64,000 bases of DNA from an uncultured Clostridia bacterium (GTDB lineage Bacteria; Bacillota; Clostridia; Christensenellales; Borkfalkiaceae). The notes below the pieces were generated by a model. The model searched no databases. It saw nothing but the letters and a program-made list of their open reading frames with translations, and had not been told where the DNA came from. The DNA lies in contig CALWCH010000005.1 of NCBI GenBank assembly GCA_944376335.1, positions 35,543 to 99,542 of the forward strand, read 5' to 3'. The position numbers and the translations under genes are program-made. Below, piece after piece: positions 25,725 to 59,687 of this stretch (position 1 is the stretch's first letter; every line of letters starts with the position of its first letter).

Positions 25725-25753
25725 AATATAGCACACGCGCCCCTTAAAATCAA
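25725..25753 (-). promoter_or_regulatory. Promoter of the transporter-GH78 operon
   Basis: On the minus strand TTGATT and TATATT are 17 bases apart, about 60 bases before the binding-protein start codon. The regulon site at 25782-25806 begins 28 bp upstream of the -35 box. Confidence 0.75.
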
Positions 25754-25781
25754 GACAAAACCCCAAAATACCCCTTCGGAA

Positions 25782-25806
25782 GTGACAAAGCGCGAACGTT
25801 TGTGAC
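25782..25806 (-). promoter_or_regulatory. Regulon site A: inverted half-sites 28 bp upstream of the -35 box
   Basis: On the plus strand GTGACAAAGC, five bases, then CGTTTGTGAC. The right half is identical to both halves of site B at 28.5 kb; the left half matches at seven of ten positions. The gap to the -35 box of the minus-strand promoter is 28 bp. On the other side the tetR promoter -35 box is 31 bp away, so the same site could also affect the regulator gene. Confidence 0.7.
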
Positions 25807-25816
25807 GCAGTAAAAT

Positions 25817-25829
25817 GTGAAATTTTCAC
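25817..25829 (+). promoter_or_regulatory. Palindrome upstream of the tetR promoter
   Basis: GTGAAA and TTTCAC form a perfect inverted repeat around a single T, eight bases before the -35 box of the TetR-type gene. Size and position suit an autoregulatory operator, but no second copy was found. Confidence 0.4.
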
Positions 25830-25837
25830 TTCCTCCC

Positions 25838-25866
25838 TTGACGGGAAAAGGTTGTTGTGGTAAAAT
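25838..25866 (+). promoter_or_regulatory. Promoter of the TetR-type regulator
   Basis: TTGACG and TAAAAT are 17 bases apart on the plus strand. The start codon is 23 bases after the -10 box, with GGGGAG as ribosome site. Confidence 0.7.
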
Positions 25867-25888
25867 GGTTTTATTCGGGGAGAAAAGC

Positions 25889-26482
25889 ATGAACAGCAAC
25901 AATCAGGATCTGAAAAACATCACCAAGGAGAGCATCACCCAGTCGCTTTTAAGGCTGATGGAGACCAAGGAATACAAGGATATCTCCATCACCAACATCT
26001 GCGAGCTCGCGGGCGTCTCCCGCAATGCGTTTTACCGCAACTATCCCGCAAAGGATGCCATTCTGCGCCAGTACATGTATGAGATCACCGACGTGTGGCG
26101 GCGGCAGCTGCGTACGATCAAAAACCTCACCGCAAAGCAATATTTCACGACGATTTTCGCCGAAACGGGCAAGCAGAAGGAGCTTGTCCGCCTGCTGCAC
26201 AAGGCGCAGGTCGAGTATCTCCTCATCGATGTCATCTTCACCTTCTTCCGCAACTTTACGCTGCACACGAGCCAGGTCCACTACTATCAGTGTCACTTTG
26301 CGGGCAGTTTTCATGCCATGATCGTCCACTGGATCATGAACGAACAGCCCGAAACGCCCGAGGAACTCGGAAGCCTGATGTGCAAGTTCAACCACATCGC
26401 CCCCACGACGCGCATCAACCTGCCCGACCCCATCGCCATTGAAGACCTCATGACCATCAGCACCTTCACCTACCGCAACTGA
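25889..26482 (+). CDS. TetR/AcrR-family transcriptional regulator
   Basis: A 197-residue regulator. The ATG at 25889 follows CGGGGAGAAAAGC; an upstream in-frame ATG lies before the promoter and is rejected. The N-terminal HTH reads ITQSLLRLMETKEYKDISIT then NICELAGVSRNAFYRNYPAK, the standard TetR pattern. The C-terminal helical ligand domain is of the type seen in DhaS-like proteins, some of which are activators or co-regulators. It is divergent from the transporter-GH78 operon and lies beside regulon site A, making it the leading in-window candidate for the regulator of that site. The evidence is positional only. Confidence 0.88.
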   Translation: MNSNNQDLKNITKESITQSLLRLMETKEYKDISITNICELAGVSRNAFYRNYPAKDAILRQYMYEITDVWRRQLRTIKNLTAKQYFTTIFAETGKQKELVRLLHKAQVEYLLIDVIFTFFRNFTLHTSQVHYYQCHFAGSFHAMIVHWIMNEQPETPEELGSLMCKFNHIAPTTRINLPDPIAIEDLMTISTFTYRN

Positions 26483-26492
26483 AAGACAGCGA

Positions 26493-26518
26493 AAAGGCCC
26501 CGCAAAAGCGGAGCCTTT
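26493..26518 (+). terminator. Terminator of the TetR-type gene
   Basis: AAAGGCCCCGC and GCGGAGCCTTT pair with one mismatch and are followed by CTTCTT on the plus strand, 11 bases after the stop codon. Confidence 0.8.
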
Positions 26519-26524
26519 CTTCTT

Positions 26525-26583
26525 GCAGCAAAGTTATAAGAGGAATGAAGATAGGGGGAATTCAAGAGGAATAACTTTGTTGC
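26525..26583. repeat. Inverted repeat with internal direct repeats
   Basis: GCAGCAAAGTTAT (26525-26537) and ATAACTTTGTTGC (26571-26583) are inverted copies with one mismatch, and AAGAGGAAT occurs directly inside each inner edge. It fills the space between the convergent TetR and Big2-lipoprotein genes. It may be a long-loop 3' structure for the minus-strand gene, but no T tract follows. Confidence 0.55.
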
Positions 26584-26601
26584 CGCAAAGGATAAGCTTG
26601 T

Positions 26602-28407
26602 TTACCCGGCAGGCGTAAAGACGCTTTCCACGGGTTCGCCCGTCGTCCCGTCTGTCGTAACGATGGTGAAGGATGCGACGGTATTGCCGTCTGTTACCGC
26701 TTCATAGGAAGCAACGCCCGTGAAGAGGTTCCCGCCGTACAGCAGCGCGACCGCTGTGTTGAAGTACTGCACTTCCATTGCGCCGTCTGCGATGTTGTAG
26801 TAGCCGTAGGAAGAGAACAGCGTCAGGCCGAAAGCGGATGCCGTGAAGTAGAAGGTGCCGTCTGCCCCGAAGGCGAAGGAGGTCGTGATGCCGCTCGCCT
26901 CGCTCGAATAGGTGACGTCCTCTGCAAAGGCATTGCTGCCCGTGAGCACGCTCGCAGGGAAGGCGACGGTCACTTCGATCTCTTCGGTGATATCGTCCAC
27001 GGTGACGACGATGGTCGCCGTGCCGGGCTTTGCACCCGTGACGGAGGAGCCGCTCACGGTGACGACGCCCTCTTCCGAGCCCTCTTTGAGAGCGACGCCC
27101 ACGGTGAGCGCGGAGACAAGATCGGTCACGCCCTCTGCAGGGGAAAGCGTCGAGGTCGCATACAGGTCGAGCGAAGCGCCCGAGTTGAGCGCAAGCGTCT
27201 TCTTGCCGTCCTGTTCGACAACGGAAGGAGCAAAGGTGATGCTCTCCGTCTCGATATAGGGAATGTCAAAGCCGAACGCCGAATTGGCGACCTCTCTTGC
27301 GAGGTTGAACGTCGCCGAAACGGGAGCAGCTGCGCCCTCCCACGAGAAGGAAGCGGTGACGGTGACGCCGTTCTTGGTGTCCGTTTCGCTTTGAATGGTG
27401 ACGGACGACGCATCGCCGAAGGCGACGGTGCCCGACATCTGCCCTGCGGTATTCACAGTGCCCGAAACGGGAGCGAAGGTGAGGGCATTGTCCGCCGCCT
27501 CCCACGTCGTCTCGAAGGAGACGGGCGAGACGGAAGAACCTGCAGGAACAAAGCTCCCCACGGTGAACACCGCCTTGCCGTCAGACCAAAGCTGGATGCT
27601 GTCTGCAGCATTTGTGCCTGCAATGGTCGTCTGAATGTAGGCAACGGTGGTATCGATGCCGCCCTCCACCTTGGTGGAGCCTACGAGCTTCGCCGCTTCC
27701 TCCTTGGAAAAATCATAGGTGCCGAGCTCGAAGTCGCTCGTGCCGTTGTTGATATACAGGCGGAGCTGCAGCTGCTGGTTTTCAAACGTTGCATCAGCGA
27801 GCACGGGGAAGCTGAAGCCCATTGCCGTCACCTGGCCGCTGAATGCGGGCGCATTGTCGACGATCTGATAGCTCCCCGTATAGGGCTCGATGGCAAGCTC
27901 GGTGCTGCCCGATACCGCAACGCCCGTGAGTTCAACATCGCCGTACTCATACATGATGAGCGTGTTGGTGTTCGTGCCCACCGCCGCCGTCTTTTGGATG
28001 CCCTCGCCGCGCGCCGCGATGACGGAGATGCTGCAATATGCCTGATACAGCCCGTCGCCCTCTTCCGCCGTTGCGGTGATGGTGCACGCCTTGCCCGCCG
28101 CATCCTCTTTGGCGGTCACGAGGCCGTTTTCATCCACCGTGCAGGTATCGTCGAAATCAACTTCCCAGGTGACGTTCTTATTCGTTGCATTCTCTGGGGT
28201 GAAGATGACCTCGAGCTGTACACTCTCGCCGACTTCCAGCGAGATCTCATCCTCGGCAAACGAGATGCCCTGCAGCGCGACCGTATCGCCGCCCGGCGTC
28301 GGTTCGGGGGGCTGCTCGGGATCCGTGCATGCCGCAAATACGCCCGCGGAGAGCGCAAGCATTGCCGCCGCGGCAAGACTTACTAACCATTTTGACTTGT
28401 GTTTCAT
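26602..28407 (-). CDS. Lipoprotein with bacterial Ig-like (Big2-type) domains, function unknown
   Basis: A 601-residue lipoprotein, lipobox Cys27 (VFAAC), followed by a proline-rich linker. Residues about 43-130 are a clear Big2 domain (LQGISFAEDEISLEVGESVQ, ENATNKNVTWEV, GLVTAKEDAAGKACTITATA). The rest is beta-strand rich and low in charge, with another Ig-like stretch near 430-490 (GTATIVVTVDDITEEIEVTV). No catalytic motif is recognised, and a glycan-binding or adhesive role is only inferred. It is a single-gene unit with its own promoter (28465-28493) carrying the best copy of the regulon site, so it belongs to the glycan response despite its unknown function. Confidence 0.75.
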   Translation of the reverse strand: MKHKSKWLVSLAAAAMLALSAGVFAACTDPEQPPEPTPGGDTVALQGISFAEDEISLEVGESVQLEVIFTPENATNKNVTWEVDFDDTCTVDENGLVTAKEDAAGKACTITATAEEGDGLYQAYCSISVIAARGEGIQKTAAVGTNTNTLIMYEYGDVELTGVAVSGSTELAIEPYTGSYQIVDNAPAFSGQVTAMGFSFPVLADATFENQQLQLRLYINNGTSDFELGTYDFSKEEAAKLVGSTKVEGGIDTTVAYIQTTIAGTNAADSIQLWSDGKAVFTVGSFVPAGSSVSPVSFETTWEAADNALTFAPVSGTVNTAGQMSGTVAFGDASSVTIQSETDTKNGVTVTASFSWEGAAAPVSATFNLAREVANSAFGFDIPYIETESITFAPSVVEQDGKKTLALNSGASLDLYATSTLSPAEGVTDLVSALTVGVALKEGSEEGVVTVSGSSVTGAKPGTATIVVTVDDITEEIEVTVAFPASVLTGSNAFAEDVTYSSEASGITTSFAFGADGTFYFTASAFGLTLFSSYGYYNIADGAMEVQYFNTAVALLYGGNLFTGVASYEAVTDGNTVASFTIVTTDGTTGEPVESVFTPAG

Positions 28408-28464
28408 GTCTTTCTCCCTTAAATAATTTTTATATCGGAACGGGAGTCCCGCTCCTTTTGCCTC

Positions 28465-28493
28465 ATTTTACTTCAACTGTCCGCCCCTTTCAA
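28465..28493 (-). promoter_or_regulatory. Promoter of the Big2 lipoprotein gene
   Basis: On the minus strand TTGAAA and TAAAAT are 17 bases apart, with a leader of about 50 bases ending in AAGGGAGAAAGAC. The -35 box is 28 bp from regulon site B. Confidence 0.78.
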
Positions 28494-28521
28494 GGGCATT
28501 CCCGAAAATAGGCGCTCCGTG

Positions 28522-28546
28522 GTCACAAACGCAAACCGTTTGTGAC
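28522..28546 (-). promoter_or_regulatory. Regulon site B: perfect inverted repeat, 10-5-10
   Basis: GTCACAAACG, five bases (CAAAC), then CGTTTGTGAC. The arms are perfect inverted copies. It begins exactly 28 bp upstream of the -35 box at 28488-28493, and this copy defines the motif. Confidence 0.82.
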
Positions 28547-28550
28547 GCTT

Positions 28551-30689
28551 TTAATATCCGAAGTATTTTTTCACCATCTCGGTGTACTTGGCGCGGTAGA
28601 CATTGCCGCACTCGGCGTTCGTCGAACCCATATGGTCGCAGTTGGGGAACATGACGACGGTGTGCTCGATGCCCGCCTCGGTGAGCGCCGCCTCCATCTG
28701 AATGCCGTGCTCGCCCGAAATGAGCATGGGGTCGAGGCAGGCCTCCGCAAGGACGGTGGGGACCGCATCCCCCTTCTTGACAAAGGCGAGCGGCGAAATG
28801 CTGTCGATCTTTTCGTCGAACTCTTCCTTGGAATAGGAGGTAAAGTCGTATTCGTTGAGCGCGCTGCGCGGCAGTTCCCCCGCCATAATGGCAGTAAGCT
28901 GTTCCTCGAGGCGCTTGTACTCCGCGCTGTTGATATATTCTTCGTACTCGGGCGTGCCGGGCTGACGGTCTCCCACGCCCAGATCGAACAGTTTGGGGTC
29001 GTTGAGGGCGATGACCGCCACCTGCGGGCCGAGGGGCATGATCGTGCCGCTCGACCAGCAGTCGAGGTGGAAGCTCATGGGGCCGACCATCGAGAAGGTG
29101 CATACGACGGGGATGGGCGCTTCCTCTTCGTTGCCCATGTCGTAGGCGTACCACGCCGCAAGGTGCGAGCCCGAGGAATAGCCGTTGGTCGCACACTTGG
29201 TGATGTTCCAGCCGTACTCATCGGAGAGCTCCTTCACCTTCTGCATCGCCTGGTTTATCTCATTCTGAATGTCGAGGAAGGTGACGACATCGCCGTTGTC
29301 GTACTGCCGCCCGCCATAAGTGTGGTTGATGGCGACGGCAAAGTAGCCCTTGTCTGCCCAGTCACGGGCGCCCGCGAGCATGGACTCTTTCTCACCGCTC
29401 GTCCAGCTGCCGCCGTGGATGAGCAGGATGACGCCGTTTCCCTCCTCCTTCTGTGCCTTCCACTTGTCCTCGGCGGGGATATAGATGTCGAGCATCTCGC
29501 GCTTTTCGAGGATGGTGGGATCGGCCGCTTCGAGATCGTACTGGGAAGCATTGTCGTCGGTGCGTTCTGTGTAAGGAAGCATCGTTCTGTCGCCGTAGCG
29601 CACGTCCTTCATGAACGTGACCCCGCGGGAGGCGACGTAGTCGTCGCTGCTCATGAGGTCGGCGTCGAAGTCATAGCCGCCCGTCGCGGCGTTGGTCTCG
29701 TCCACCACGGCATACGGCATGACGGCAAACACGTTGTCCCGCCGCGAGACGACACCGGTTGAAGCATTGATGTAGAAATTCGCATCGGTACCGTCATCGA
29801 ACTTGGCGTTCATGCTGTACTCGTTGGTGCCTGCAAGGGGCGTGTCCGCAACGTCATAGGTCCCGAAACGGTAGTACTCCTTGCCGACAACGTACTCCTT
29901 GCCGAGCGTTTGATTGAAGTACTCGCAGCCGAGCTCAGTATAGTGGTTGGTAACGACGAAGGTATTGTCGCTTACGAAGGAGACGACGGAGGAGCGGTAG
30001 AGCTGCGAAATTTTGGTGACCGCGAGCATCTCCTCTTTGAGCGTCTCGTCTTCAAGGGCGAGGATCTTGTTGAGCTCCCCTTCCGTAAACACGGTGACGT
30101 CGCTGTAGCCGCTCTCGGGCTTTAAGACCTTGCTCTCGAGCACGATCTCGCCCGAAGAATAGCTCGCCTTGCCGCCGCCCAGCGCCTCAAGCATGATGTT
30201 GACGGCATATACCGATGCGTCATCGTCCCCCACCGCTGCAAGCAGCGCATTGGCGAGAAGCCCGTTGTAGCGGGGCGTTTCCGCACCCACTTCCTCCCCC
30301 TCGATCTCGAAGAGATTGAGATAGTCGGAAACGTCGGCATCCGCTGCATAAGGGGTCTCGAGCGTCGCCTGAATGTTCGTGCGGAAGGCCTGCGCTTTCT
30401 CATTGACAACACCCTTGTTCTCGGCAAGCGTCTTGGTGTTGTCGTACTCCGTCCCCGCGATGTCGTTGACGGCACTTTGCGCAAGCTGTTTCTGCTCCGC
30501 ACTCGTCCCCACGCCGTTGTAGCCGCGGGCGTAGACGGCAAGCTGCGTCCTGTACGCCTCAAACTCCTCCACGGCGGCAGGATCGACGGGCGTCTCTTCG
30601 GGCCCACCCTCTTTGCACGCCGTGAGCAGCGCCGAACATGCGCCCAAAGACAGTACTGCCGCAAGCGTTAAAGCTGCAAATCTCTTCAT
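28551..30689 (-). CDS. Surface lipoprotein with alpha/beta-hydrolase (esterase) domain
   Basis: About 712 residues; the second of two adjacent ATGs is preferred because GGAGG lies six bases upstream. The signal peptide ends at Cys25 (LTAC), with Cys18 (LGAC) as an alternative. The N-terminal 350 residues have no recognised family. The C-terminal half is an alpha/beta hydrolase close to carboxylesterase/acetyl-xylan-esterase types: oxyanion motif LIHGGSWTSG, nucleophile elbow GYSSGSHLA, and catalytic histidine in NCDHMGS. A surface esterase that removes acyl groups from glycans is the likely role; a lipid esterase cannot be excluded. It is a single-gene unit whose promoter carries regulon site D and a palindrome in the leader. 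Confidence 0.82.
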   Translation of the reverse strand: MKRFAALTLAAVLSLGACSALLTACKEGGPEETPVDPAAVEEFEAYRTQLAVYARGYNGVGTSAEQKQLAQSAVNDIAGTEYDNTKTLAENKGVVNEKAQAFRTNIQATLETPYAADADVSDYLNLFEIEGEEVGAETPRYNGLLANALLAAVGDDDASVYAVNIMLEALGGGKASYSSGEIVLESKVLKPESGYSDVTVFTEGELNKILALEDETLKEEMLAVTKISQLYRSSVVSFVSDNTFVVTNHYTELGCEYFNQTLGKEYVVGKEYYRFGTYDVADTPLAGTNEYSMNAKFDDGTDANFYINASTGVVSRRDNVFAVMPYAVVDETNAATGGYDFDADLMSSDDYVASRGVTFMKDVRYGDRTMLPYTERTDDNASQYDLEAADPTILEKREMLDIYIPAEDKWKAQKEEGNGVILLIHGGSWTSGEKESMLAGARDWADKGYFAVAINHTYGGRQYDNGDVVTFLDIQNEINQAMQKVKELSDEYGWNITKCATNGYSSGSHLAAWYAYDMGNEEEAPIPVVCTFSMVGPMSFHLDCWSSGTIMPLGPQVAVIALNDPKLFDLGVGDRQPGTPEYEEYINSAEYKRLEEQLTAIMAGELPRSALNEYDFTSYSKEEFDEKIDSISPLAFVKKGDAVPTVLAEACLDPMLISGEHGIQMEAALTEAGIEHTVVMFPNCDHMGSTNAECGNVYRAKYTEMVKKYFGY

Positions 30690-30711
30690 CATTTTCCTCC
30701 CAAATCGTTTT

Positions 30712-30725
30712 TTGTGACGTCACAA
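30712..30725 (-). promoter_or_regulatory. Palindrome in the 5' leader of the esterase lipoprotein gene
   Basis: TTGTGAC abuts GTCACAA to give a perfect 14-bp palindrome. It uses the same TTGTGAC core as the regulon site, but with the half-sites abutting and in the opposite relative orientation. It sits about 17-30 bases downstream of the predicted start point, so binding there could repress. Confidence 0.5.
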
Positions 30726-30748
30726 CTGTTACGTCTTGTATGGGCTTC

Positions 30749-30777
30749 ATTATAGGGGCGCGCGCGGACGATTGCAA
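30749..30777 (-). promoter_or_regulatory. Promoter of the esterase lipoprotein gene
   Basis: On the minus strand TTGCAA and a consensus TATAAT are 17 bases apart. Regulon site D starts 28 bp upstream of the -35 box. Confidence 0.8.
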
Positions 30778-30805
30778 GACCATTTTAAAAGAAAGCCGGC
30801 ATGTT

Positions 30806-30830
30806 GCCACAAACCGCCCGCCGTTGTGAC
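30806..30830 (-). promoter_or_regulatory. Regulon site D upstream of the esterase lipoprotein gene
   Basis: GCCACAAACC, five bases (GCCCG), then CCGTTGTGAC, flanked by a further GTTG/CAAC pairing. Same 10-5-10 layout and same 28-bp distance to the -35 box as sites A and B. Confidence 0.75.
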
Positions 30831-30852
30831 GGCAACGTGCAAAAAAGCGGCA

Positions 30853-30878
30853 AAAAAGGAGCCCCTCGGCTCCTTTTT
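30853..30878 (-). terminator. Terminator of the large GH operon
   Basis: AAAAAGGAGCC pairs perfectly with GGCTCCTTTTT over four bases, just after the GH39 stop; on the minus strand it ends in a T tract. Confidence 0.9.
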
Positions 30879-30896
30879 CGGTGATACGGGTGAACT

Positions 30897-32135
30897 TTAT
30901 TTCAGCTCTATCAAAACAATATCGTTGGTGCGGAGGCACACGCGCACCGTGCTCTCACCGCCATCAGGCCGCACGGGGCAGGGCTCCCGCGAAAGAGCAG
31001 TCCTCTCGCGGATGGCCTCCGCCTGTGCGGGGGTGAGAAGGTCGGGCTTCCCCATCGCCTCCCACTCCGCCTTGGGGTTGCAGTGCATATCGTCAATGCG
31101 ATACATCGCCGCCTCGGTAAAGGCCCCCTTCAGCCGCACTTCCGCCTCGAACGCCTCGTCCTTCCTTGCATCAAAGTCCTGTGCATACAGGAGAAGCTGC
31201 ACCTTTTCCCCGTCCGTGAAGGCGGCGAGCTCGACTTCCTCATCGGTGACGGGAAGGATCAGGCGTGCAGGACAGAGCTTGGACAAGAGCTCGAACGCGC
31301 GGAAGTTGGGCTTGGGGATGCCGTCGCTCGAGAGGATGCCGAACGCCCCGTGAAAGGGCTTGCCGAGGTCGAACATCTCCTCGAATACATCCGAACAGCA
31401 CCAGAACAGATAGCCCTCGGCGATGTCGTCCGCGTCCATCACGCTCTTTACGACGAACGCCGCCGAGTACTTCTCATCGTGGACGGGCGCCGCGAAGACG
31501 GAGGTCGAATTCCACTCGGTGATGAAGAGGGGCAGCTCTCCCGCCGCCTCGCGCGCAGCCTCGTCCAACTTGCGGAAGGCGCCCTTCTTCCATGCGGCGC
31601 TCTCCGCGGGGTCGTAGAAGAGGGCGGTCATCGCCTCGCCGAGGGGCACGCCCTTCTCGGCGCACTCCTTGGCGATTTGGCCGAGACGGCCTGCAGGGCG
31701 CGCGGAGAGCAAGTTCCCGAACGCATCCCCGGGGTAGTGATGGGTGGAGAGGAAGTCGAGCGGCACCTCATTCTGCGTGCAGAACGTCCTGAACTCCTTT
31801 AACCATTTGCAGGCGCTCGTTGCGGGACCGCCCACGCGGAGGGCGGGATCCTCCGCCTTGATCGCGCGCGCCGTCGCCTCGTAGAGGCGGAAATAGTCGG
31901 GCATCTCCGAAGCGGAAAAGACGCCTAAGTCGGGCTCGTTCCACACCTCGAAGTACCAGCTCTCCACCTCCTCCCTGCCATATCTTTCAAGCAGAAAGCG
32001 GATGAACGCGCGGATAAATTCCGCCCACGCCCCCAAGTCCTTGGGCATGGTGATGTTGGCGTTGTAGGCAAGGCCGGTTTCCCTGCCGCTTGCAAGTGCC
32101 GAGGGCATGAAGGAGAGCTCCACGAAGGGCTTCAT
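30897..32135 (-). CDS. GH39 beta-xylosidase-like enzyme, 3' fragment of a frameshifted gene
   Basis: 412 codons containing most of the (beta/alpha)8 barrel. The acid/base glutamate is in YFEVWNEPDLGVF and the nucleophile glutamate in LFITEWNSTS, both diagnostic of GH39; PLDFLSTHHYP lies between, and a C-terminal beta-sandwich follows. The apparent start, MKPFVELSFMPSALASG, is internal in normal GH39 proteins and continues directly from the end of the 32132-32446 frame. Restoring one base (reading LLALGMKPFVEL) joins the two into about 516 residues, the usual GH39 length. As written, neither piece makes a complete barrel. No signal peptide; last gene of the operon. Confidence 0.85.
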   Translation of the reverse strand: MKPFVELSFMPSALASGRETGLAYNANITMPKDLGAWAEFIRAFIRFLLERYGREEVESWYFEVWNEPDLGVFSASEMPDYFRLYEATARAIKAEDPALRVGGPATSACKWLKEFRTFCTQNEVPLDFLSTHHYPGDAFGNLLSARPAGRLGQIAKECAEKGVPLGEAMTALFYDPAESAAWKKGAFRKLDEAAREAAGELPLFITEWNSTSVFAAPVHDEKYSAAFVVKSVMDADDIAEGYLFWCCSDVFEEMFDLGKPFHGAFGILSSDGIPKPNFRAFELLSKLCPARLILPVTDEEVELAAFTDGEKVQLLLYAQDFDARKDEAFEAEVRLKGAFTEAAMYRIDDMHCNPKAEWEAMGKPDLLTPAQAEAIRERTALSREPCPVRPDGGESTVRVCLRTNDIVLIELK

Positions 32136-32446
32136 GCGAGGGCGAGCAGGTTGTCGTACACGACGGCAGCGCGGCGGAAATTGCGCTCCGTCACCTTCTC
32201 CGCGTCCGGAAGGACGGAGAACGCCTTGAGGTCGGCAAACGACTGCAAAATGCGCATGTCGTCGTTGAAGATGCCGTGGAAGCGCACATAGCGGAAGCCG
32301 ATCTCATCGTGCGCGCGCTTTAAGTGCGAGCACACGTCCGTGCGCATCACCTGAAAGGCATGGTCATTGCCGATGCCCATCTGCCATGCACGGGAAGTCG
32401 GCTTGGTCTCCCTATGCACGTCGACGGAAAACGCAAATTTTTTCAT
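32132..32446 (-). CDS. GH39 beta-xylosidase-like enzyme, 5' fragment
   Basis: 104 codons giving the first strands of the GH39 barrel: MGIGNDHAFQVMRTDVCSHL and IGFRYVRFHGIFNDDM are strongly family-like. The stop comes immediately after VYDNLLALA, exactly where homologues read on through G-MKPFVELSF. The stop overlaps the ATG of the next frame (ATGA), which mimics translational coupling, but both parts belong to one domain, so a one-base deletion is the better explanation. The start overlaps the GH3 stop, with GGAG eight bases upstream. Confidence 0.82.
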   Translation of the reverse strand: MKKFAFSVDVHRETKPTSRAWQMGIGNDHAFQVMRTDVCSHLKRAHDEIGFRYVRFHGIFNDDMRILQSFADLKAFSVLPDAEKVTERNFRRAAVVYDNLLALA

Positions 32447-45352: not shown

Positions 45353-45381
45353 ATTTTAGCATACTTGCAGCCGCTTTACAA
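45353..45381 (-). promoter_or_regulatory. Promoter of the large GH operon
   Basis: On the minus strand TTGTAA and TAAAAT are 17 bases apart, about 35 bases before the ceramidase-like start codon. Confidence 0.7.
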
Positions 45382-45398: not shown

Positions 45399-45423
45399 GT
45401 AACACCCCCGCCGCCTTTGTCAC
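45399..45423 (-). promoter_or_regulatory. Regulon site F: weak copy, 17 bp from the -35 box
   Basis: GTAACACCCC, five bases, CCTTTGTCAC. The right half matches CGTTTGTGAC at eight of ten positions, the left half at about six. It is 17 bp from the -35 box, 11 bp (one helical turn) closer than sites A, B, D and E. It may be a weaker site for the same regulator or a chance match. Confidence 0.4.
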
Positions 45424-51292: not shown

Positions 51293-51311
51293 GCGTATAG
51301 AAATATGGTAA
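51283..51311 (-). promoter_or_regulatory. Promoter of the kinase-isomerase-aldolase operon
   Basis: On the minus strand TTACCA and TACTAT are 17 bases apart. It overlaps the divergent regulator promoter, so occupation of one would exclude the other. Confidence 0.6.
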
Positions 51312-51333
51312 TTTCGTATCGGATTTTACGATT

Positions 51334-52131
51334 ATGCGCGAATACGACTTAAACAAAATGCAGCAACTACTGCACGACTTTTACGATCTGACGGGCATCA
51401 AGATCTGCATCTACGACAGCCGTGAAAACGAGCTTTGTTACTATCCCGAAAAGCTCACGCCCTTCTGCCGCTGTTTAAGGGAGGACAAGGCGCAGGACAA
51501 GGCGTGCCGTCTTTCAGACAAAAACGCCTTCCTCACCTGCCGCCGCACCCGCAGGCAGACGGTTTTGGAGTGTCACGCGGGGCTTTTAGAGTGCTTTTCG
51601 CCCATCTTCTGCGAGGGAAAACTCATCGGCTACATCGCCATCGGACAGATTCGCTCCAAGCCGCATGCGCCGGAAAGCGTTCCCGAAGAGCTGCGCCCCC
51701 TCTATGAGGCGCTTCCCTCCATTCCCATGCGCAAGATCGACGCTGCCATGCACATTCTCGACGCCTGCGCGGGATATGAATACCTGAAAGCCCTTGTTGA
51801 GACGTACGAGAGCCGCATCGACACGCGCATCTCCGAATACATCGAAGAACACCTTGAGGGCGACCTCTCCGTTACGGCGCTCTGCCGCGCCTTTTACCTC
51901 TCGCGCGCCGAGCTCTACGGCATCTTCCGCACCTACTTTCATGCTTCGGTCGCCGATTTCGTGCGCGGACGCAGGCTGGAACGGGCAAAGGTCCTGCTCA
52001 AGACCACGCCTCTCCTCGTCAAAGAGATCGCGGTGCAGTGCGGTATTCCCGACTACAACTACTTCTCCAAACAGTTCCGCCGTGCCTTCGGCGTAACGCC
52101 CACCGCCCTTCGGAAGGGGGTGCAAGCGTAG
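51334..52131 (+). CDS. AraC-family regulator with PocR sensory domain
   Basis: 265 residues. Residues about 8-110 form a PocR-type domain with its cysteine pattern (FCRCLREDKAQDKACR, LECHAGLLECFSPI) and YIAIGQIR; PocR domains sense small hydrocarbon derivatives and sugars. The C-terminal 100 residues are the double AraC HTH (LSVTALCRAFYLSRAELYGI, VKEIAVQCGIPDYNYFSKQF ending in FGVTP). The ATG has only a weak ribosome site (GGAT). Divergent from the kinase-isomerase-aldolase operon, it is the obvious activator for it. It ends three bases from the convergent GH94 gene. Confidence 0.92.
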   Translation: MREYDLNKMQQLLHDFYDLTGIKICIYDSRENELCYYPEKLTPFCRCLREDKAQDKACRLSDKNAFLTCRRTRRQTVLECHAGLLECFSPIFCEGKLIGYIAIGQIRSKPHAPESVPEELRPLYEALPSIPMRKIDAAMHILDACAGYEYLKALVETYESRIDTRISEYIEEHLEGDLSVTALCRAFYLSRAELYGIFRTYFHASVADFVRGRRLERAKVLLKTTPLLVKEIAVQCGIPDYNYFSKQFRRAFGVTPTALRKGVQA

Positions 52132-52134
52132 GCC

Positions 52135-54531
52135 TCAGCCCATCACGGCGAGCACTTCCGCCTCGCGCCTGCCCTTCAAAAGTTCGGGCAAAATGAGGTT
52201 GCCCTCTGCCTTCTCGCCGTCCACATAGAGCGCCTTCACGCCGTGTTCGACGCCCTCGTTTTCCACGCGGATATGAAGCCTGCACCCGCGCCAGATGCGC
52301 TCCACGGCAAACCCCTTCCACGTCTTGGGGATGCAGGGGTCGATGACGAGCCCTTTGAGCGTAGGCCTGACGCCCAGAAGGTACTGCGTCGAGACGACGT
52401 CCATCCACGCCGCCGTGCCCGTCACCTGCGAGACGCAAGCCCAGCCGAATTTTTCGTTATCGGGCCCGAGCATCGTGCTCGAGAAGGCGTACGGCTCGTT
52501 GTGATAGCGCTCGACGCCCACTTTTTCGATGACCTCGTGCGGCAGGATCTGCTTATAGTACTTCCACGCATTCTCGGCGCGGCCCAAGAGCGCCTCCGCC
52601 ATGATCGCCCAGCAATTTGCCTGGCAGAACACGCCGCCGTTCTCCGAATACCCCTTGGGAAGGCCGTTGACCATGCTGTCGGGAAGGCTCGGGAAATTGA
52701 TCATGAGCCCCATGCCCGTATCCAGCTGCTCCTTCACGGAGTCCATCGCCTGCGTATTGTGCTCTCTCGTGCCCGCGCCTGCAATGATATTCCAGCTCTG
52801 CGTATTCACCCAGATGCGCGCGTTTGCGTCGGACGCCGTGCCGATGGGCTGTCCTTCGTCGTCATAGCCGCGGCGGTACCACTTGCCGTCCCACGCGAAC
52901 GTATCGAGCGCCGCTTCCTGCTGCTTTTGAAGTGCTTTGAGCCGCTCCGCACAGGCAACATCGCCCCGAGCTTCGGCAAGTTCCTGCAATAATTTCAGTT
53001 GATAGATGTGCTGCTGCGAGACAAAGATGCTCTCCCCCTTCCCCTTTTTGCCGAAGGGGCCCAAATGGTCGTTCCAGTCGCTGAAGAGAATGAGCGGCAG
53101 CCCGTGCTCGCCCTTGTTGTTCTCCGTAAAGGATACCCCGCGGAGAAGGTGCTCAAAGAGCGAAGCGGGGGAGACCGCGCTCTTTAAGTCCTTCCCGAGG
53201 AAGGGCACTTCTCTATTCAGGAAACTCAAATCTCCCGTCTCGGCGGCGATGGCATGGGCGAGGTAGGTCATCCAGATGTGATTATCCGAGCGAGTTGCGA
53301 CCTGCGGGAGCTTCTCGTCCTCCGGCCACGATTGGTGCACGGTGGAGCCGTCCTCAAACTGCTGCGAGGCGAGATAGCAGAGCATCTCCTCCGCCCATTT
53401 TGGCTTGCGGTACGCCTGCGCGAGCATATCCTGCGCCGTATCGCGGAACCCGATGCCGCGGATGCCCGAAGCAGAGGAACTGATAGAGCGCGAGAACCAT
53501 GCCGTCACCACGCTCTGCACGGGATTCCAAGTGTTGATCTCCCGCATGGCGTTCTCATCGGGAATGTCGCATTGCAGCACGCCCAGCTGTTCTCCCCACC
53601 ATGCGGCGTTTTTGTCGAATTGACGGCGCACGGCTCCCTGCTCGCGGAGCGCATGAAGCGTCTCCTTCGCCGCCGCCCTCGCCCTCTCAAAGTCAAGAAG
53701 CGCCCCGGGCGCAACGCCCAAATAGTACTCGACCGTCCTTTTGCCCTTCCCTTCGAGCACGATGTGTGAATGCAGCGCGGCGCAGGGCTCCCCGCCCTTC
53801 AGGGCAGTATCGGAGAGCACGCCCCGCTCCACTTCCACAGGCTCTCTCTCGTCGCGGTAATTGCCGCAGAAGATGTCTCTATCGCAGCAGTAGGACTGAA
53901 CTTTCTCGCTCGAACCAAAGTACACGAGCGGCACATCGCTCTTTCTGATCTGCACGAAGGAGTTGAAACGGTACAAAATTGCGTCGAGGTCCGTATCAAA
54001 GTCCGCCTCCGTCTGCCATTTGAGGTAGTACCCGAGGTTGACTTCGTTCAAAAAGGAGAACTCGGAAAGCTCCACATAGGCAAAGACATCACATTCTGTC
54101 TGCTCGCCCCTCTCGTTCTCCAAATCGAGCGACCACAAAAGCGTATCATAGTCGGGCGCCATAAAGAGGGTGAGCACCGCTCTGAGCCCGTCCTTTTCGG
54201 CAATAAACTGCGAATATCCGGGCGCATGCACGGCCTCGAACCGATCGAGCGCGGTCTCCGCAGGGCGAAAGGCGGGAGACCAGACGGTGCCGTCTTTCAT
54301 GCGGATGTAGATATAAAACCCCGGGCTGTCGATGGGGAAATTGTAGAAGCGATAGCGCGTCAATCGGAAGTTCTGCGGTGTTCTCCACCAAGTGAGCCCG
54401 CCGCCCGCCTGCGAGACGAACGCATGCATCCGCCCGTTGGAAAGGTAATTGATCCACGGCGAGGGAAGATCGTATCTCGTAATGACGATCTTTTTATTTT
54501 TATCGTCGAAATAGTAGAGTAACTTTTGCAT
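52135..54531 (-). CDS. GH94 family beta-glycoside phosphorylase
   Basis: 798 residues, cytoplasmic. The ATG at 54531 is taken; a TTG three codons upstream is too close to GGGAGG. N-terminal beta-sandwich (WINYLSNGRMHAFVSQAGGG, WWRTPQNFRLTRYRF), then an (alpha/alpha)6 barrel with GIRGIGFRDTAQDML, HQSWPEDEKLPQVATRSDNH and the catalytic aspartate in LFSDWNDHLGPFGKKGKGES. These are the GH94 marks (cellobiose, cellodextrin or chitobiose phosphorylases). It would split a disaccharide with phosphate to give a sugar-1-phosphate, saving ATP. Last gene of the xylA-GH78-tannase operon; a disaccharide left after deacylation and derhamnosylation is a reasonable substrate. Confidence 0.92.
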   Translation of the reverse strand: MQKLLYYFDDKNKKIVITRYDLPSPWINYLSNGRMHAFVSQAGGGLTWWRTPQNFRLTRYRFYNFPIDSPGFYIYIRMKDGTVWSPAFRPAETALDRFEAVHAPGYSQFIAEKDGLRAVLTLFMAPDYDTLLWSLDLENERGEQTECDVFAYVELSEFSFLNEVNLGYYLKWQTEADFDTDLDAILYRFNSFVQIRKSDVPLVYFGSSEKVQSYCCDRDIFCGNYRDEREPVEVERGVLSDTALKGGEPCAALHSHIVLEGKGKRTVEYYLGVAPGALLDFERARAAAKETLHALREQGAVRRQFDKNAAWWGEQLGVLQCDIPDENAMREINTWNPVQSVVTAWFSRSISSSASGIRGIGFRDTAQDMLAQAYRKPKWAEEMLCYLASQQFEDGSTVHQSWPEDEKLPQVATRSDNHIWMTYLAHAIAAETGDLSFLNREVPFLGKDLKSAVSPASLFEHLLRGVSFTENNKGEHGLPLILFSDWNDHLGPFGKKGKGESIFVSQQHIYQLKLLQELAEARGDVACAERLKALQKQQEAALDTFAWDGKWYRRGYDDEGQPIGTASDANARIWVNTQSWNIIAGAGTREHNTQAMDSVKEQLDTGMGLMINFPSLPDSMVNGLPKGYSENGGVFCQANCWAIMAEALLGRAENAWKYYKQILPHEVIEKVGVERYHNEPYAFSSTMLGPDNEKFGWACVSQVTGTAAWMDVVSTQYLLGVRPTLKGLVIDPCIPKTWKGFAVERIWRGCRLHIRVENEGVEHGVKALYVDGEKAEGNLILPELLKGRREAEVLAVMG

Positions 54532-54536
54532 TTCGT

Positions 54537-56039
54537 TCAATACCTCCCGTTGCCGCGCACTTTCGTAAAGTGATTCTTATCCTTCCTGTCGCCGCCCGCG
54601 TACTTTGTCTCATACGGGTAGGGATAGACGGGCCTCTCATAATCGACCGTCCCCTTCATGTCTCCCTCTTCAAACGCAGAAGCGTACAGTACCTCGGGCG
54701 CGATGCCCTTCTCCGCCCAAGTCATCACGGCGCAGACGGCGTCGTGCTCGGCATCGTAAGAAATAGCAGCAATGCCGCCCTTTGCACCGATCTCTTGAAG
54801 GCCGCTCCCGCCCTGACAGTGCCCGAGCCCCGGCACATGGAAATAGCGGAAGAACTGCGCTACATTTTCTTCGCCGCCCATCTCGTCGAGAACGCTCTTG
54901 TAATAGGCGAGCCCGTCCGTATAGGGAATGAGGGAATCTTCCGAACCCGTGATCATGATGAGCTTCCCCCTGCGCGCCTGAAAGGCGGAGAGGTCGGGAT
55001 CGGACGCATCAAACTCCCTTTGATAGGGCCCGAGCACGGCCTTGTGCTCTTCATAGGAAACATTGATCGCATCCTCGCCGTATCCCCACCGCTGGAAGAA
55101 ACCCAAAAGCTTGATAAATCCATCCTTCAAATAGGGAATAAAGAGCGACGAGGGCTCACTCCCGAGCGGCGGCGTAAAGAAGAGCGGGCAGCCCCTCTCC
55201 GGGTCGACGGGCGCGCTATGCAGGTCTTTGAGCACCTTTTTCTGCGCCTCGTTGAGCCCGAGCCCTTCACAGAGCGCCTCCACGTCCGCGGGCATGAATT
55301 TTACTTTCCCGGGGTAGGAGAGGAAATTATCCCCCTCCGCGCTGCCCGACAAGACGGCGTACTTTTCGACGATGCGCCTCTTGAGCGCCGCGATCTGCTC
55401 CTTTGTAAAGGCCGCCGAAGGGTCGGAACAGGTGACGGAGACGATCCACGGAAAGGACTGCTGCAAATAATAGCGGTTGCGGGCAGGGCAGACGGCGACG
55501 ATGCCGTCGTAGTCCTCGGGGTACTTCTGCGCCTCCTGCAATGCCTGATTGCCGCCCGTACTCCCACCGAGAAAGTACGCCCGCCCGATCTTTTCGCCGT
55601 AAAAGGCCTCGGTGAGCTGTTTCCCGACCGCCGTCATAAGGTGCGTCGCGCGGTGGGCAAAGTCCAACCATCTCTCGGGGCAGCGGTACATCTTTCTGCT
55701 GTCCAACGAGCTGCCCATATCGGTATTGGCGACCGCAAACCCGTGCGAGACGCCCGCATCGAGGCTCCCCTCCACGATGACGCCCGCCTGCCCGCCGTTG
55801 CCCGTGCCGAGGAACCGCTTGTTCCAGCCCGTAAGGGGCAGCACGAGCACGCAGGTGATATCCGACTGCTCCGAGGGATACAGCTTATACGTCACCCGGC
55901 AGCGCGGGGGCAGGGGCAGAAGTGCGCACCCGTCCCCGTCGACGGGGGTCGGGTTTCCCTCCAAAAAGGCGATATCCGCAATTTCCCCCTGTTCGATGAA
56001 AACAGCCCTCAGCCTTCTTTCATATTCCTGATGGGTCAT
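54537..56039 (-). CDS. Tannase/feruloyl-esterase family hydrolase
   Basis: 500 residues, no signal peptide. The ATG at 56039 follows AGGAGGAATTT; a frame 18 codons longer is rejected. CRVTYKLYPSEQSDITCVLV, NGGQAGVIVEGSLDAGVSHG and FLGGSTGGNQALQEAQKYP mark the tannase family, with nucleophile serine in GGSTGG. The C-terminal triad region shows ITGSEDSLIPYTDG (Asp) and VPGLGHCQGG (His). Family members cleave ester bonds between phenolic acids and sugars. In an operon with GH78 and GH94 enzymes, a gallate-, ferulate- or coumarate-acylated glycoside is a likely substrate. The usual secretion signal is absent, so it acts after import. Confidence 0.85.
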   Translation of the reverse strand: MTHQEYERRLRAVFIEQGEIADIAFLEGNPTPVDGDGCALLPLPPRCRVTYKLYPSEQSDITCVLVLPLTGWNKRFLGTGNGGQAGVIVEGSLDAGVSHGFAVANTDMGSSLDSRKMYRCPERWLDFAHRATHLMTAVGKQLTEAFYGEKIGRAYFLGGSTGGNQALQEAQKYPEDYDGIVAVCPARNRYYLQQSFPWIVSVTCSDPSAAFTKEQIAALKRRIVEKYAVLSGSAEGDNFLSYPGKVKFMPADVEALCEGLGLNEAQKKVLKDLHSAPVDPERGCPLFFTPPLGSEPSSLFIPYLKDGFIKLLGFFQRWGYGEDAINVSYEEHKAVLGPYQREFDASDPDLSAFQARRGKLIMITGSEDSLIPYTDGLAYYKSVLDEMGGEENVAQFFRYFHVPGLGHCQGGSGLQEIGAKGGIAAISYDAEHDAVCAVMTWAEKGIAPEVLYASAFEEGDMKGTVDYERPVYPYPYETKYAGGDRKDKNHFTKVRGNGRY

Positions 56040-56049
56040 AAATTCCTCC

Positions 56050-58461
56050 TTACGCGAGATACAATTCGTTGAGGCGGGCAAGGCGCTTTTCAAAGTCTTC
56101 GCCCGTCAGCTTGCCCTTGTCGAGCAGATACTGCTTTGCAAAGGCAAGCGTATCCGAAGAATTTTTCAGGTAGTTGAGCTCCAGCGGGTGAAAGACGCCC
56201 GCGAACGCCTCCGAGAAGGCGCGGCTCGCCTTGGGGTTGGTGAGCACGTCAACAACGGGGCTCTCAAGCGCAAACACGGGTCCTGCAAGCGTCTCCCACG
56301 GGCAGGTATGGGTGAGTACCCCGCCGCCCGATGCCGCCAAAGTGCCGTCGGGCAGATACAGCTCGCCCCGAACGCCCGCGGGAAGCTCCGCAAAGAAGGT
56401 GATGCTTCCCCCTTTCTCCTCATATCCCGCGCGGATGACGCCGTGAACGCTCTCAAAGCAAGCGCGCACGCGCGAAAGCCCCTTGACGGGGTGCGGGCAG
56501 ATGCGCACGCGCGAAAAGCCGGGCTCCTGCGCCTCGATGCCCGCAATGCGGCGGTAAATAAACTCCATCACCGAGCCGTAGGCGTAGTGGTTGCAGCTGT
56601 TCATGCCGTCGGGATTGGGCGTGCCGTCGGGAAGGATGCTGTTCCATCGTTCCCAGATGGTCGTCGCGCCCATGTCGACTTCAAAGAGCCAGCCGGGGAA
56701 GCCGATGTTCATGAGCACCTTCCCCGCCGTCTCCATATAGCCGTTGTCGGCGAGCGCAAACAGGAGATAGGGCGTGCCGATAAAGCCCGTGACGACGCGG
56801 CAGCCGTGGCGCAGCACGCGCGCGTTGAGCGCAGCCGCCGTCTTTTTGCGGAACGCTTCGGGCACGATGCCGAAGACGAGCGCCAGCACATGCGCGGCGA
56901 TCGTCTCGGAGGCCACCTTGCCGCCCGCGGTGATATACTCCCTTCTCACCGCCGCAAGTGCCTCTTCATGCGCTTCTTGATAGCGGCGGGCGTCCTCTTT
57001 CCTTCCGAGGGCTTCCGCCGTCTCCCGCATGACCGCAAGCGCGCGGACGTGCAGGAAGTTTGCGATGAGGTATTTATCCGTGCTTGCAAATTCGGCGTGC
57101 CGAAGGAGGGGGTCGACTTCCATCGCCAGCCAGTCGCCGTACTCGAATCCCTTTGTGATGAGTTCTCCTTCCATGTTCTTTTTGCGGGCAGAGAGAAAGC
57201 GCTCCATCGCCTCGTAGTTTTCGGAAAGGAAGCTCTTGTCGCCGTACATCTCGTAGAGCGCAAAGGGAATGGTGATGATGCAGTCGCTCCACATCGCGGA
57301 GGTGTTCAAGGTCATCTCGGGCCCCAATGCCGCTAAAACGTACGGCACGACGACGGGCACCTCGCCCCCTTCCGCCTGTTCGCTCCGAAGGTCACGCAGC
57401 CACTTCTTCATAAAGGCACGGATATCGAAGTTATAGGCGGCCGTTCTGCAGAAGGCGTTGATGTCGCCCGTCCAGCCCAGCCGCTCGCTGCGCTGCGGGC
57501 AGTCGGTGGGAATGTCTACAAAGTTATCGCGCTGGCTCCAGACGATGTTGGAAAGCAGCCTGTTGACGCGCACATCCGAAGTCTCGATGCTGCCCGTGCG
57601 GTGCATCTCCGTGTGCCGCACGAGCGCGGTCACATTCTCCTTGGGAAGTTCCCCTCCCGAAAGGCGCATATAGCGGAAGCCGTGGAAGGTGAACTCGGGC
57701 GCGTAGACGGTGCGCCCCCTTGCGGTGAGCGTATCCGTCGCCTTGGCGGCGCCCAGGTTGCCGCGATACAGTTCGCCGTCCACCATGAGCTCGCCGAACT
57801 CCATCGTAAGCGTTCCCGCAAAGTCCTCGGGCGTGACGATCTCAACGACGCCCGAAATGTTCTGCCCGAAATCATACACCGCATCTCCCTTGGGCGTTGT
57901 AATGACTTCCTTTACGGGGAGGCGCTCCGTCGTGCGCACAAAGGCGTCCTCTTGCAGAACGAGCTTTGTTTTATCGAAGGGCACTTCCTTCGGGGTGAGC
58001 GGACGAGGATCCGCCGTAAAGGCTGCGCTCTCGCCCGCGTAGATGCCCGCATCTCTGATAAAAGAGGTGCGCGCCGTAAACCTTTCGTCCGTCGAAATGG
58101 TCTCGCTCTCGAGAACGAGGTCGGCGGCAGCGGCCGTCTCCGAGCCGTAAATCTCCCGCTTCATCAGCCAGAAGAGGGGACCCTTATACCACCCCTCGCT
58201 GACGGTGAGGGTGAGTACGTTCTCCCCCTCCTGCAAGAGCGAAGAGACGTCGTACTCCTGCACCTGCACGATTTTGTGATAGTTGGTCCAGCCGGGGGTG
58301 AGATAGTTCTCCCCCACCCGCTTCCCGTTGATGTGTGCCGTATATAGGCCGAGCGCCGTCACCCGAAGGACGGCGGCGCACGGTCTTTGCAAGACAAATT
58401 TCCGTTCGAGGACAAAGGTATTCACCCCCTCCCGAACGCCCATAAATTTCCCCTTGAGCAT
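56050..58461 (-). CDS. GH78 alpha-L-rhamnosidase (second copy)
   Basis: 803 residues, cytoplasmic. GGGAGAGGAATAA precedes the ATG and overlaps the xylA stop. N-terminal sandwich domains (VTALGLYTAHINGKRVGENY, LTPGWTNYHKI), then the catalytic barrel with DIPTDCPQRSERLGWTGDIN and DMGATTIWERWNS, then a C-terminal sandwich. It lacks the N-terminal Fn3 domain of the 19.3-22.0 kb enzyme and is about 90 residues shorter, so it is not a recent duplicate. Probably removes rhamnose from imported, possibly acylated, glycosides. Confidence 0.92.
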   Translation of the reverse strand: MLKGKFMGVREGVNTFVLERKFVLQRPCAAVLRVTALGLYTAHINGKRVGENYLTPGWTNYHKIVQVQEYDVSSLLQEGENVLTLTVSEGWYKGPLFWLMKREIYGSETAAAADLVLESETISTDERFTARTSFIRDAGIYAGESAAFTADPRPLTPKEVPFDKTKLVLQEDAFVRTTERLPVKEVITTPKGDAVYDFGQNISGVVEIVTPEDFAGTLTMEFGELMVDGELYRGNLGAAKATDTLTARGRTVYAPEFTFHGFRYMRLSGGELPKENVTALVRHTEMHRTGSIETSDVRVNRLLSNIVWSQRDNFVDIPTDCPQRSERLGWTGDINAFCRTAAYNFDIRAFMKKWLRDLRSEQAEGGEVPVVVPYVLAALGPEMTLNTSAMWSDCIITIPFALYEMYGDKSFLSENYEAMERFLSARKKNMEGELITKGFEYGDWLAMEVDPLLRHAEFASTDKYLIANFLHVRALAVMRETAEALGRKEDARRYQEAHEEALAAVRREYITAGGKVASETIAAHVLALVFGIVPEAFRKKTAAALNARVLRHGCRVVTGFIGTPYLLFALADNGYMETAGKVLMNIGFPGWLFEVDMGATTIWERWNSILPDGTPNPDGMNSCNHYAYGSVMEFIYRRIAGIEAQEPGFSRVRICPHPVKGLSRVRACFESVHGVIRAGYEEKGGSITFFAELPAGVRGELYLPDGTLAASGGGVLTHTCPWETLAGPVFALESPVVDVLTNPKASRAFSEAFAGVFHPLELNYLKNSSDTLAFAKQYLLDKGKLTGEDFEKRLARLNELYLA

Positions 58462-59496
58462 TTATTCCTCTCCCATGAGAAGATCCATCACATACATCTC
58501 GAGCCCCTCGAAGTCGCGGTTTTCCACGCACTTCTTCTGGAAGTCGTAGTCAAAGCGGCGGACCTTCTTCTCGAGCTTTTTGAAGATCTTAAGGCTGTTC
58601 TCAAGGTGCTTGTAGCTGTCCTCGTCCGTCGTGGTGCGCATCGCCTTTACGTCGAGACCGACGTATTCCCCGCGGGAGCCGTAGTTGTTTTCGACGAGCA
58701 CCTTGACCTGATTGAACGCCTGGCGCAAGTTCTCCACGCCGAAGGTCTTGTCCTGGTCGTAGCGAATGCCGTTCTGATCGTTGAGGTGCACGGTGAAGAG
58801 CTTATCGAAGGCGAGCGCAAAGCCGATCTCATGCGCGGGATCGAGTCCTGCAAGGATGGCGTGCGCGCTCTCGAGGTTGCCGCCCACGCGCTTGGGGTCG
58901 ATGGTCGCCGCCGAGACTGCCATCACGTGCCCCATCGTGCCGCAGATGCTCCTGTCGATGGGCTCGTTGGGCTTGGGCTCGATGCACACGCGGATGTGCT
59001 CGTCATATTCGAGCATCTCATTGATGGCGGAGACGAGCTGTTTGGTCGCCCAAACGGGAGACTTGCTCTCCGCGCACAGCGTGCCCTCGCGGGCGAGCCA
59101 CAGGACGAGAAGGTCGGTGCCCAGCTCCTTTGCGATATCGATGGAGCGCTTTGCACGCCACATGGCGAACTCCCTGTCCTCCTTGCGAGTCGACATAAAC
59201 CCGCCGTCGATGGTGTGGGGGTCCATCCACAGGCGGGGCGCAACGAACTCCGCCTTCAATCCATACTTATCGAGCAGCTTTTTGAGCTTTCTCGCCTCTT
59301 CCTTGATTTCCTCCCCGATGAGCTCGTTGAGGTTGGGCACGGCGTCGTCATCGTGGAATTGAACGGCATCGAAGCCGATCTCCTTAAAGCGCTTGAACTT
59401 CTCCTCGAGCGGGATCTCCTTGCGCGTTGCGGGGCCGTAGGAATCTGCCCCTGCGTGAACGTTCCAAGGGCCGACGGAAAACTTGAACTCAGACAT
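58462..59496 (-). CDS. xylA: Xylose isomerase (class I-like TIM barrel)
   Basis: 344 residues. The ATG at 59496 follows TTGGGAGGTTATTT; a much longer frame upstream runs through the promoter and is rejected. The catalytic histidine is His48 in AVQFHDDDAVPN. The metal-binding glutamate and lysine are in VCIEPKPNEP, then GGNLESAHAILAG, and FTVHLNDQNGIRYDQDKTFG carries metal-binding Asp residues. This matches actinobacterial-type class I xylose isomerases, though slightly shorter than their 385-395 residues. The natural substrate could be another aldose, such as rhamnose, given the GH78 gene four bases away. First gene of the operon, under regulon site E. Confidence 0.82.
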   Translation of the reverse strand: MSEFKFSVGPWNVHAGADSYGPATRKEIPLEEKFKRFKEIGFDAVQFHDDDAVPNLNELIGEEIKEEARKLKKLLDKYGLKAEFVAPRLWMDPHTIDGGFMSTRKEDREFAMWRAKRSIDIAKELGTDLLVLWLAREGTLCAESKSPVWATKQLVSAINEMLEYDEHIRVCIEPKPNEPIDRSICGTMGHVMAVSAATIDPKRVGGNLESAHAILAGLDPAHEIGFALAFDKLFTVHLNDQNGIRYDQDKTFGVENLRQAFNQVKVLVENNYGSRGEYVGLDVKAMRTTTDEDSYKHLENSLKIFKKLEKKVRRFDYDFQKKCVENRDFEGLEMYVMDLLMGEE

Positions 59497-59548
59497 AAAT
59501 AACCTCCCAATGGTGCTGATTTGCGGGGCCTTGCCCCTCTTTTCCTGC

Positions 59549-59577
59549 AGTATAGCACGGCACAGGGCACAATTCAA
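59549..59577 (-). promoter_or_regulatory. Promoter of the xylA-GH78-tannase-GH94 operon
   Basis: On the minus strand TTGAAT and TATACT are 17 bases apart, about 55 bases before the start codon. Site E begins 28 bp upstream. Confidence 0.78.
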
Positions 59578-59605
59578 GAAGATGGGGAAAAATGGGCGGC
59601 GCGGT

Positions 59606-59630
59606 GTCACAACGCAAAAATCAATGTCAC
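59606..59630. promoter_or_regulatory. Regulon site E, midway between divergent promoters
   Basis: GTCACAACGC, five A residues, TCAATGTCAC. The left half fits the motif well (its complement is GCGTTGTGAC); the right half is weaker. It is 28 bp from the -35 box on each side, so one site can serve both promoters. Confidence 0.7.
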
Positions 59631-59658
59631 GCCTCTTGCCCGGTTTCCCCAAAAGCCC

Positions 59659-59687
59659 TTGAAAACGCCGCCGCATTTTTCTATAAT
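59659..59687 (+). promoter_or_regulatory. Promoter of the divergent esterase gene
   Basis: TTGAAA and a consensus TATAAT are 17 bases apart on the plus strand, 23 bases before the start codon. Confidence 0.82.

Follow-up and report, generated by a model that had tools for sequence, protein, structure and literature searches.

TetR-family proteins are known mostly as repressors. DhaS of Lactococcus lactis (TIGR02366, PDB 2iu5), which has the TetR fold, uses a wide inverted-repeat operator. In the accessible parts of the literature, DhaS appears either as an activator of the dha operon (PMC6534649; a table row in PMC12647141) or as both repressor and activator (PMC12421961). Class I activators of Bacillota have their site upstream of the −35 hexamer. 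According to the accessible text of a Bacillus subtilis alpha-CTD study, promoters that depend on the alpha-CTD are marked by AT-rich elements with centres at −43 and −53, and none of the class I activators named there (ComA, RemA, ManR, YufM, YycF) is a TetR (PMC4495994). No title among the matches listed in our literature searches (in one of them the best 20 of 3,617) concerned the activation of a glycan island by a TetR-type protein, within a scope that leaves most subscription papers outside.

Here we analysed a window, the whole stretch of 64,000 nucleotides from an uncultured Clostridia bacterium, in which five related inverted-repeat sites lie upstream of glycan genes (Table 1). Our main reading, to which we assign a probability of about 0.72, is that the TetR protein encoded beside site A would be a DhaS-like class I activator binding GTnACAA-N11-TTGTnAC in the island. 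As far as sequence can tell, the regulon is real and compact, its sites keep a fixed phase, and there is a good candidate for its regulator.

Table 1. Coordinates of sites, promoters and regulatory genes in the window
Feature	Position	Strand	Description
LacI regulator	14842-15903		
Promoter A	25725..25753	−	TTGATT-17-TATATT; 28 bp from site A; downstream: lipoprotein, two permeases, GH78
Site A, 25 bp	25782..25806	−	Between tetR and transporter operon
tetR promoter	25838..25866	+	TTGACG-17-TAAAAT; 31 bp from site A, another helical phase
TetR-family regulator, 197 aa	25889..26482	+	Divergent from site A; proposed cognate factor
Promoter B	28465..28493	−	TTGAAA-17-TAAAAT; 28 bp from site B; drives Big_2 lipoprotein 26602-28407
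Site B	28522..28546	−	Perfect inverted repeat
Compact operator in promoter C leader	30719..30732		GTnACAA + TTGTnAC abutting (N0), 11/12
Promoter C	30749..30777	−	TTGCAA-17-TATAAT; 28 bp from site C; drives esterase lipoprotein 28551-30692
Site C	30806..30830	−	
Promoter E	45353..45381	−	TTGTAA-17-TAAAAT; 17 bp from site E; ATG at 45318
Genes after promoter E			Ceramidase-like, GH3, esterase, AKR, TIM barrel, GH2, pectin acetylesterase (PAE), GH3, GH39 (Pfam)
Site E, weaker	45399..45423	−	3 mismatches vs GTCACAA-N11-TTGTGAC; 11/12 vs GTnACAA-N11-TTGTnAC
PocR-type AraC regulator	51334-52131		Inside island
Promoter D−	59549..59577	−	TTGAAT-17-TATACT; 28 bp from site D; then xylose-isomerase-like gene (ATG 59496), GH78, tannase-family, GH94
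Site D	59606..59630		Between two divergent promoters (D−, D+)
Promoter D+	59659..59687	+	TTGAAA-17-TATAAT; 28 bp from site D; BD-FAE esterase 59711-60748

An earlier note on this DNA had proposed four 25-bp minus-strand sites of two inverted halves, each starting 28 bp from the −35 box of a promoter with a 17-bp spacer, at unlinked glycan genes. When coordinates, distances and hexamers were rechecked, all four sites (A to D) were present at those promoters and the 17-bp spacer was found at each. Inverted halves occur in all four sites, but only B is a perfect palindrome, and the 28 bp are measured from the promoter-proximal end of the site rather than from its start. The site centre lies near −76, helically fixed as the note had it for its four promoters, and the same holds for D+. 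Two promoters had been missed: D+, at 28 bp, and E, whose 17 bp had been predicted as an alternative distance and recurs at three target promoters in genome G055. The description of the targets as unlinked did not hold, as all of them belong to one glycan island, in which they lie next to each other. Judged from gene order, six units between 19.3 and 60.7 kb are served by the sites. A CRP/FNR-type site carries TGTGA before TCACA, six bases apart. The order of the halves is reversed here, with TCACA first and TGTGA last, and for this reason we rejected a CRP-like reading, as the note had done.

The fixed spacing was assessed with a promoter score applied 5 to 109 bp downstream of the sites. A distance of 28 bp with a 17-bp spacer was the top-ranked promoter for A, B, C, D− and D+, and the probability that four random points of the window would share one best distance was approximately 9e-7; random spacing was therefore rejected. 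When contig C5 (99.5 kb) was scanned for sites with up to 3 mismatches and a good promoter within 5 to 59 bp, they fell at distances of 28 (five cases), 31 (tetR) and 17 (E), and allowing 4 mismatches added single cases at 10, 26 and 52.

Specificity was evaluated across the 1.75-Mb assembly, which is 86% complete. GTCACAA-N11-TTGTGAC with up to 2 mismatches occurred at only four places, A to D, with none for the reversed-pattern control. At up to 1 mismatch there were three sites in the genome and one across the other 102 congeners (in G088, in a region without a relative of the island), where two control places were also found. A composite of site, 28 bp, TTG and TAnnnT with up to 3 mismatches recovered five promoters genome-wide, all of them in the window and with 0 to 2 mismatches (control 0). 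In the other 102 congeners the same composite gave 12 matches in 11 genomes, each with 3 mismatches, and 2 controls; among these 11, G024 was the one examined as an orthologous promoter. With 17 bp in place of 28, three matches appeared genome-wide, each with 3 mismatches (control 0). For E the promoter bases match throughout and all mismatches fall within the site itself; the other two matches come from sites A and B, where the promoter fits poorly. Single weak matches mean little, because the site alone with up to 3 mismatches occurs at 24 places in the genome versus 10 in the control, and many genomes of the family have the loose form ACAAA...TTTGT ahead of a promoter (169 of 398; from this loose-pattern scan only rows G000 (3) and G055 (4) were used). 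By eye, an ACAAA...TTTGTGGA element at one constant distance from a TTGACA box was also seen in G011, G035, G037 and G064; this is perhaps another regulon or a shared promoter.

Within the window, paired GTnACAA halves are spaced by N11 exactly at A, B, C, D and E, by N0 once, in the promoter C leader, and by N6 once; no pair was found at the remaining spacings from 0 to 18. Site E is intergenic; by eye, it is preceded by a hairpin-like run and followed by a ribosome site. In the leader of promoter C, three GTnACAA-type half-sites stand in a row at 30712-30732, the compact operator included, and a second palindrome, GTGAAAATTTCAC, lies at 25817-25829 between site A and the tetR −35 hexamer. 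Several observations concern the surroundings of the sites. The GH39 gene at 30897-32446 is split into two overlapping open reading frames by a frameshift in gene or assembly. To the left of the island, 9201-15903 is occupied by another glycan unit with GH43, a transporter and the LacI regulator, and the right edge of the island shows a serine recombinase gene (61310-63094) and GTTACAA/GTAACAA pairs at 62749-62805.

Three regulators are encoded in the window, namely LacI, PocR-AraC and a TetR_C_8 protein, and the last of these lies directly beside site A. It is the likeliest regulator of these sites, so that the earlier note's view of a regulator with no known match was incomplete. When the open reading frame 25817-26482 was scanned, Pfam placed it in the TetR family and the TetR_C_8 group, at 25.9 bits for TetR_N (cutoff 24) and 27.5 bits for TetR_C_8 (cutoff 26.1). 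The predicted model had a pLDDT of 89.6, and TetR folds were its best structural matches. Foldseek ranked the DhaS-like structure 4mk6 first and 2iu5 fourth, with TM-scores of about 0.5; the repressors FadR and EthR rank beside the DhaS structures and are about as near. By sequence, 2iu5 is a weak match (E 8e-4). The best NCBIfam match was TIGR02366 (E 2.4e-8); because it scored 34.2 bits against a curated cutoff of 129, the protein is not DhaS itself, and none of the 45 window open reading frames carried a dihydroxyacetone kinase domain (Pfam), as a DhaS neighbourhood would have. The protein thus appears to be distant kin of a known activator. Its recognition helix reads SRNAFY, and the only other TetR match in the source genome has RATFY.

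Close relatives are rare. Across 398 family genomes and an overlapping set of 396 order genomes, only G055 encoded one, with 40% identity; besides it, no match was better than E 1.7e-27 in the family set and none reached E<=1e-28 in the order set. On G055 contig C21, tetR faces a GH78 gene in an island whose products are 45 and 49% (permeases), 52% (GH3), 48% (PAE), 41% (esterase) and 34% (GH2) identical to those of the window. This island also has a Big_2 lipoprotein gene, for which no match in the window was found at 1e-8. The window-type site with up to 1 mismatch is absent in G055. Repeats of the form GGAACAAA-N8-TTTGTTCC with up to 2 mismatches occur there three times genome-wide, all on the tetR contig (control 1), one base narrower than the window sites and with GG or GA as outer bases. 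Each stands 17 bp from the −35 hexamer of a target, these being GH78, the Big_2 lipoprotein and a solute-binding protein, and the difference between 28 and 17, 11 bp, is one helix turn. A further repeat of window-like N11 form, GTAACAAA-N9-TTTGTAAC, stands midway between two of these sites, 49 bp from each of the last two −35 boxes (L037 4838-4926). A second TetR gene was noticed near this middle repeat. The tetR promoter itself is off the shared phase in both islands, at 31 bp in the window and 21 bp in G055.

To relate recognition helix and half-site, wider relatives were collected. A related-locus search with the single TetR protein returned no relative, and one with a two-row alignment returned 78 loci. 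From 130 entries, 63 relatives were retained at 75% identity (same genus and family, other Clostridia, Streptococcus), with leaders below 200 bases and the query clade L005, L006, L043 and L071 left out. Among 40 leaders of SRNAFY relatives, GTnACAA pairs matching at least 11/12 were spaced by N11 in 11, by N0 in 4 and by N14 in 3, and GAnACAA was found in none. Among 19 leaders of RATFY relatives, none had GTnACAA at N0 or N11 (one each at N17 and N18), and GAnACAA occurred at N0 in 7, at N11 in 3 and at several further spacings. Shuffles gave a null of about 0.02 per spacing, and 4 of the 63 relatives had neither helix. Recognition helix and half-site vary together across these TetR relatives, and the window sites belong to the operator class of SRNAFY-type proteins, GTnACAA-N11-TTGTnAC, although the N11 cases are not independent, since 7 of the 11 are Streptococcus.

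The position of the operator differs from that in the window, where N11 sites lie upstream of target promoters. A scan for N11 and N10 forms across 77 loci (1.42 Mb), accepting 12/12 matches anywhere and 11/12 within 400 bases of tetR, yielded 20 rows, all near tetR. In 17 of them the start codon of tetR falls within the N11 site, and in the other three the site is just upstream of the gene. Such a start-codon site would repress tetR, or may form an RNA hairpin. In Streptococcus (L080, L088, L092, L098, L116, L121 and others), the tetR leader has an inverted repeat across ribosome site and start codon. Perfect repeats beside tetR with ACAAA-type halves in a fixed 17- or 28-bp layout were found in no relative outside G055.

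We then compared site D with its counterpart in congener G024, where the D-locus proteins are 66 to 93% identical to those of the window. Site D is kept there (20/25 identical), at 28 bp from the −35 hexamer and without an indel. At promoter D−, 5/6 bases of the −35 and 6/6 of the −10 hexamer are identical, compared to 9/17 in the spacer, 18/28 in the linker (with the first 8 bases and ATTTT kept) and 10/25 in the 25 bases upstream of the site; on the esterase side the distance is 29. An A/T run centred near −49 occurs in the 28-bp linkers, with 5, 5, 4, 5 and 3 of 5 positions in A, B, C, D− and D+; it is weak in D+, and a run this strong appeared in 0 of 20,000 shuffles. Site E has no clear A/T run near −50. 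The conservation pattern in G024, the A/T run and the position of the sites fit class I activation, in which the site lies upstream of the −35 on a fixed face of the helix, as it does at 28 bp in five promoters, 17 bp at E and 17 bp at three promoters in G055. Phase and A/T run thereby lend sequence support to the earlier note's activator contacting RNA polymerase, while activation itself is what they suggest. Target −35 boxes are 1 or 2 bases off TTGACA, which is no strong argument for activation, because tetR's own box is nearly equal (1 off).

The same TetR protein might instead repress from upstream, for instance through too tight a hold on the alpha-CTD or through DNA loops that join phased sites. 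The usual role of the family, the repressor position of the operator over the start codon in 17 of the 20 rows, the compact operator in the promoter C leader and the three phased repeats in one divergent region of G055, whose −35 boxes are near-consensus, would all accord with repression. We nevertheless consider it unlikely on two indirect points: none of the five 28-bp promoters is covered by its site, and the A/T run at about −50 suggests recruitment. A tentative reading, somewhat less doubtful but still improbable, is that for one TetR protein the geometry and place of the operator set the sign of control, such that wide N11 operators 28 or 17 bp upstream of the −35 would activate and a compact N0 operator in a leader would repress. 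A regulator encoded elsewhere and shared with G024 is a distinctly poorer prospect than either. No tetR orthologue was found in G024 (79% complete), where the best TetR match is 27% identical and has RATFY as its helix; because site D is kept nonetheless, either the part absent from the assembly contains tetR or the site is bound by a different protein. On the other side, all sites of the source genome with up to 2 mismatches lie in the island with the tetR gene, and helix and half-site covary across the relatives.

AraC proteins often activate glycan genes, and the PocR-type regulator is encoded inside the island. We rejected it as the binder on its distribution and regard its involvement as very improbable. 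A homologue at E<=1e-25 is present in 10 of 103 congeners (this one included; 49% identity in G004), but the site with up to 1 mismatch is confined to this genome and a single place in G088, and neither G088 nor G055 belongs to the ten. Of the other nine, G015, G084 and G100 each show a single composite match with 3 mismatches, on contigs other than that of the homologue, and G024 keeps site D although its GH94 gene adjoins the kinase gene with no AraC between. The kinase-isomerase-aldolase run (51.2-45.5 kb) that faces the araC gene is without an N11 or N0 site, and a single N6 match (51422-51441) lies inside araC itself. As the sites are few and their promoters could be duplicates within the island, chance or the copying of promoters without a regulator might also be invoked. 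We give this almost no credence: sites and boxes line up across the promoters, but their linkers and spacers vary, and the same contrast recurs against G024 in the identities given above.

For class I activation by the TetR protein, we infer the following mechanism from the sites, their distances, the A/T run, the partial conservation in G024 and the covariation of helix and half-site. The protein would bind the 25-bp operators GTnACAA-N11-TTGTnAC and sit near −76 at the five 28-bp promoters, or about a helix turn closer at E. From there it would help the alpha-CTD of RNA polymerase onto the A/T run at about −50 and so raise transcription, with a product of plant-glycan breakdown as the probable signal. 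Because regulator, operator, targets and distance rule can be read from the DNA, the mechanism lends itself to direct testing.

For uncharacterised TetR genes, the link between helix and half-site could be of use in finding their operators. Regulator, operator, targets and distance rule are readable in two related islands, as is a run on which the alpha-CTD might dock. If the tentative reading is true in which geometry and place set the sign of control, an operator for autorepression would have become a modular activating element in this lineage, and its distance would move by whole helix turns both within a genome and between genomes.
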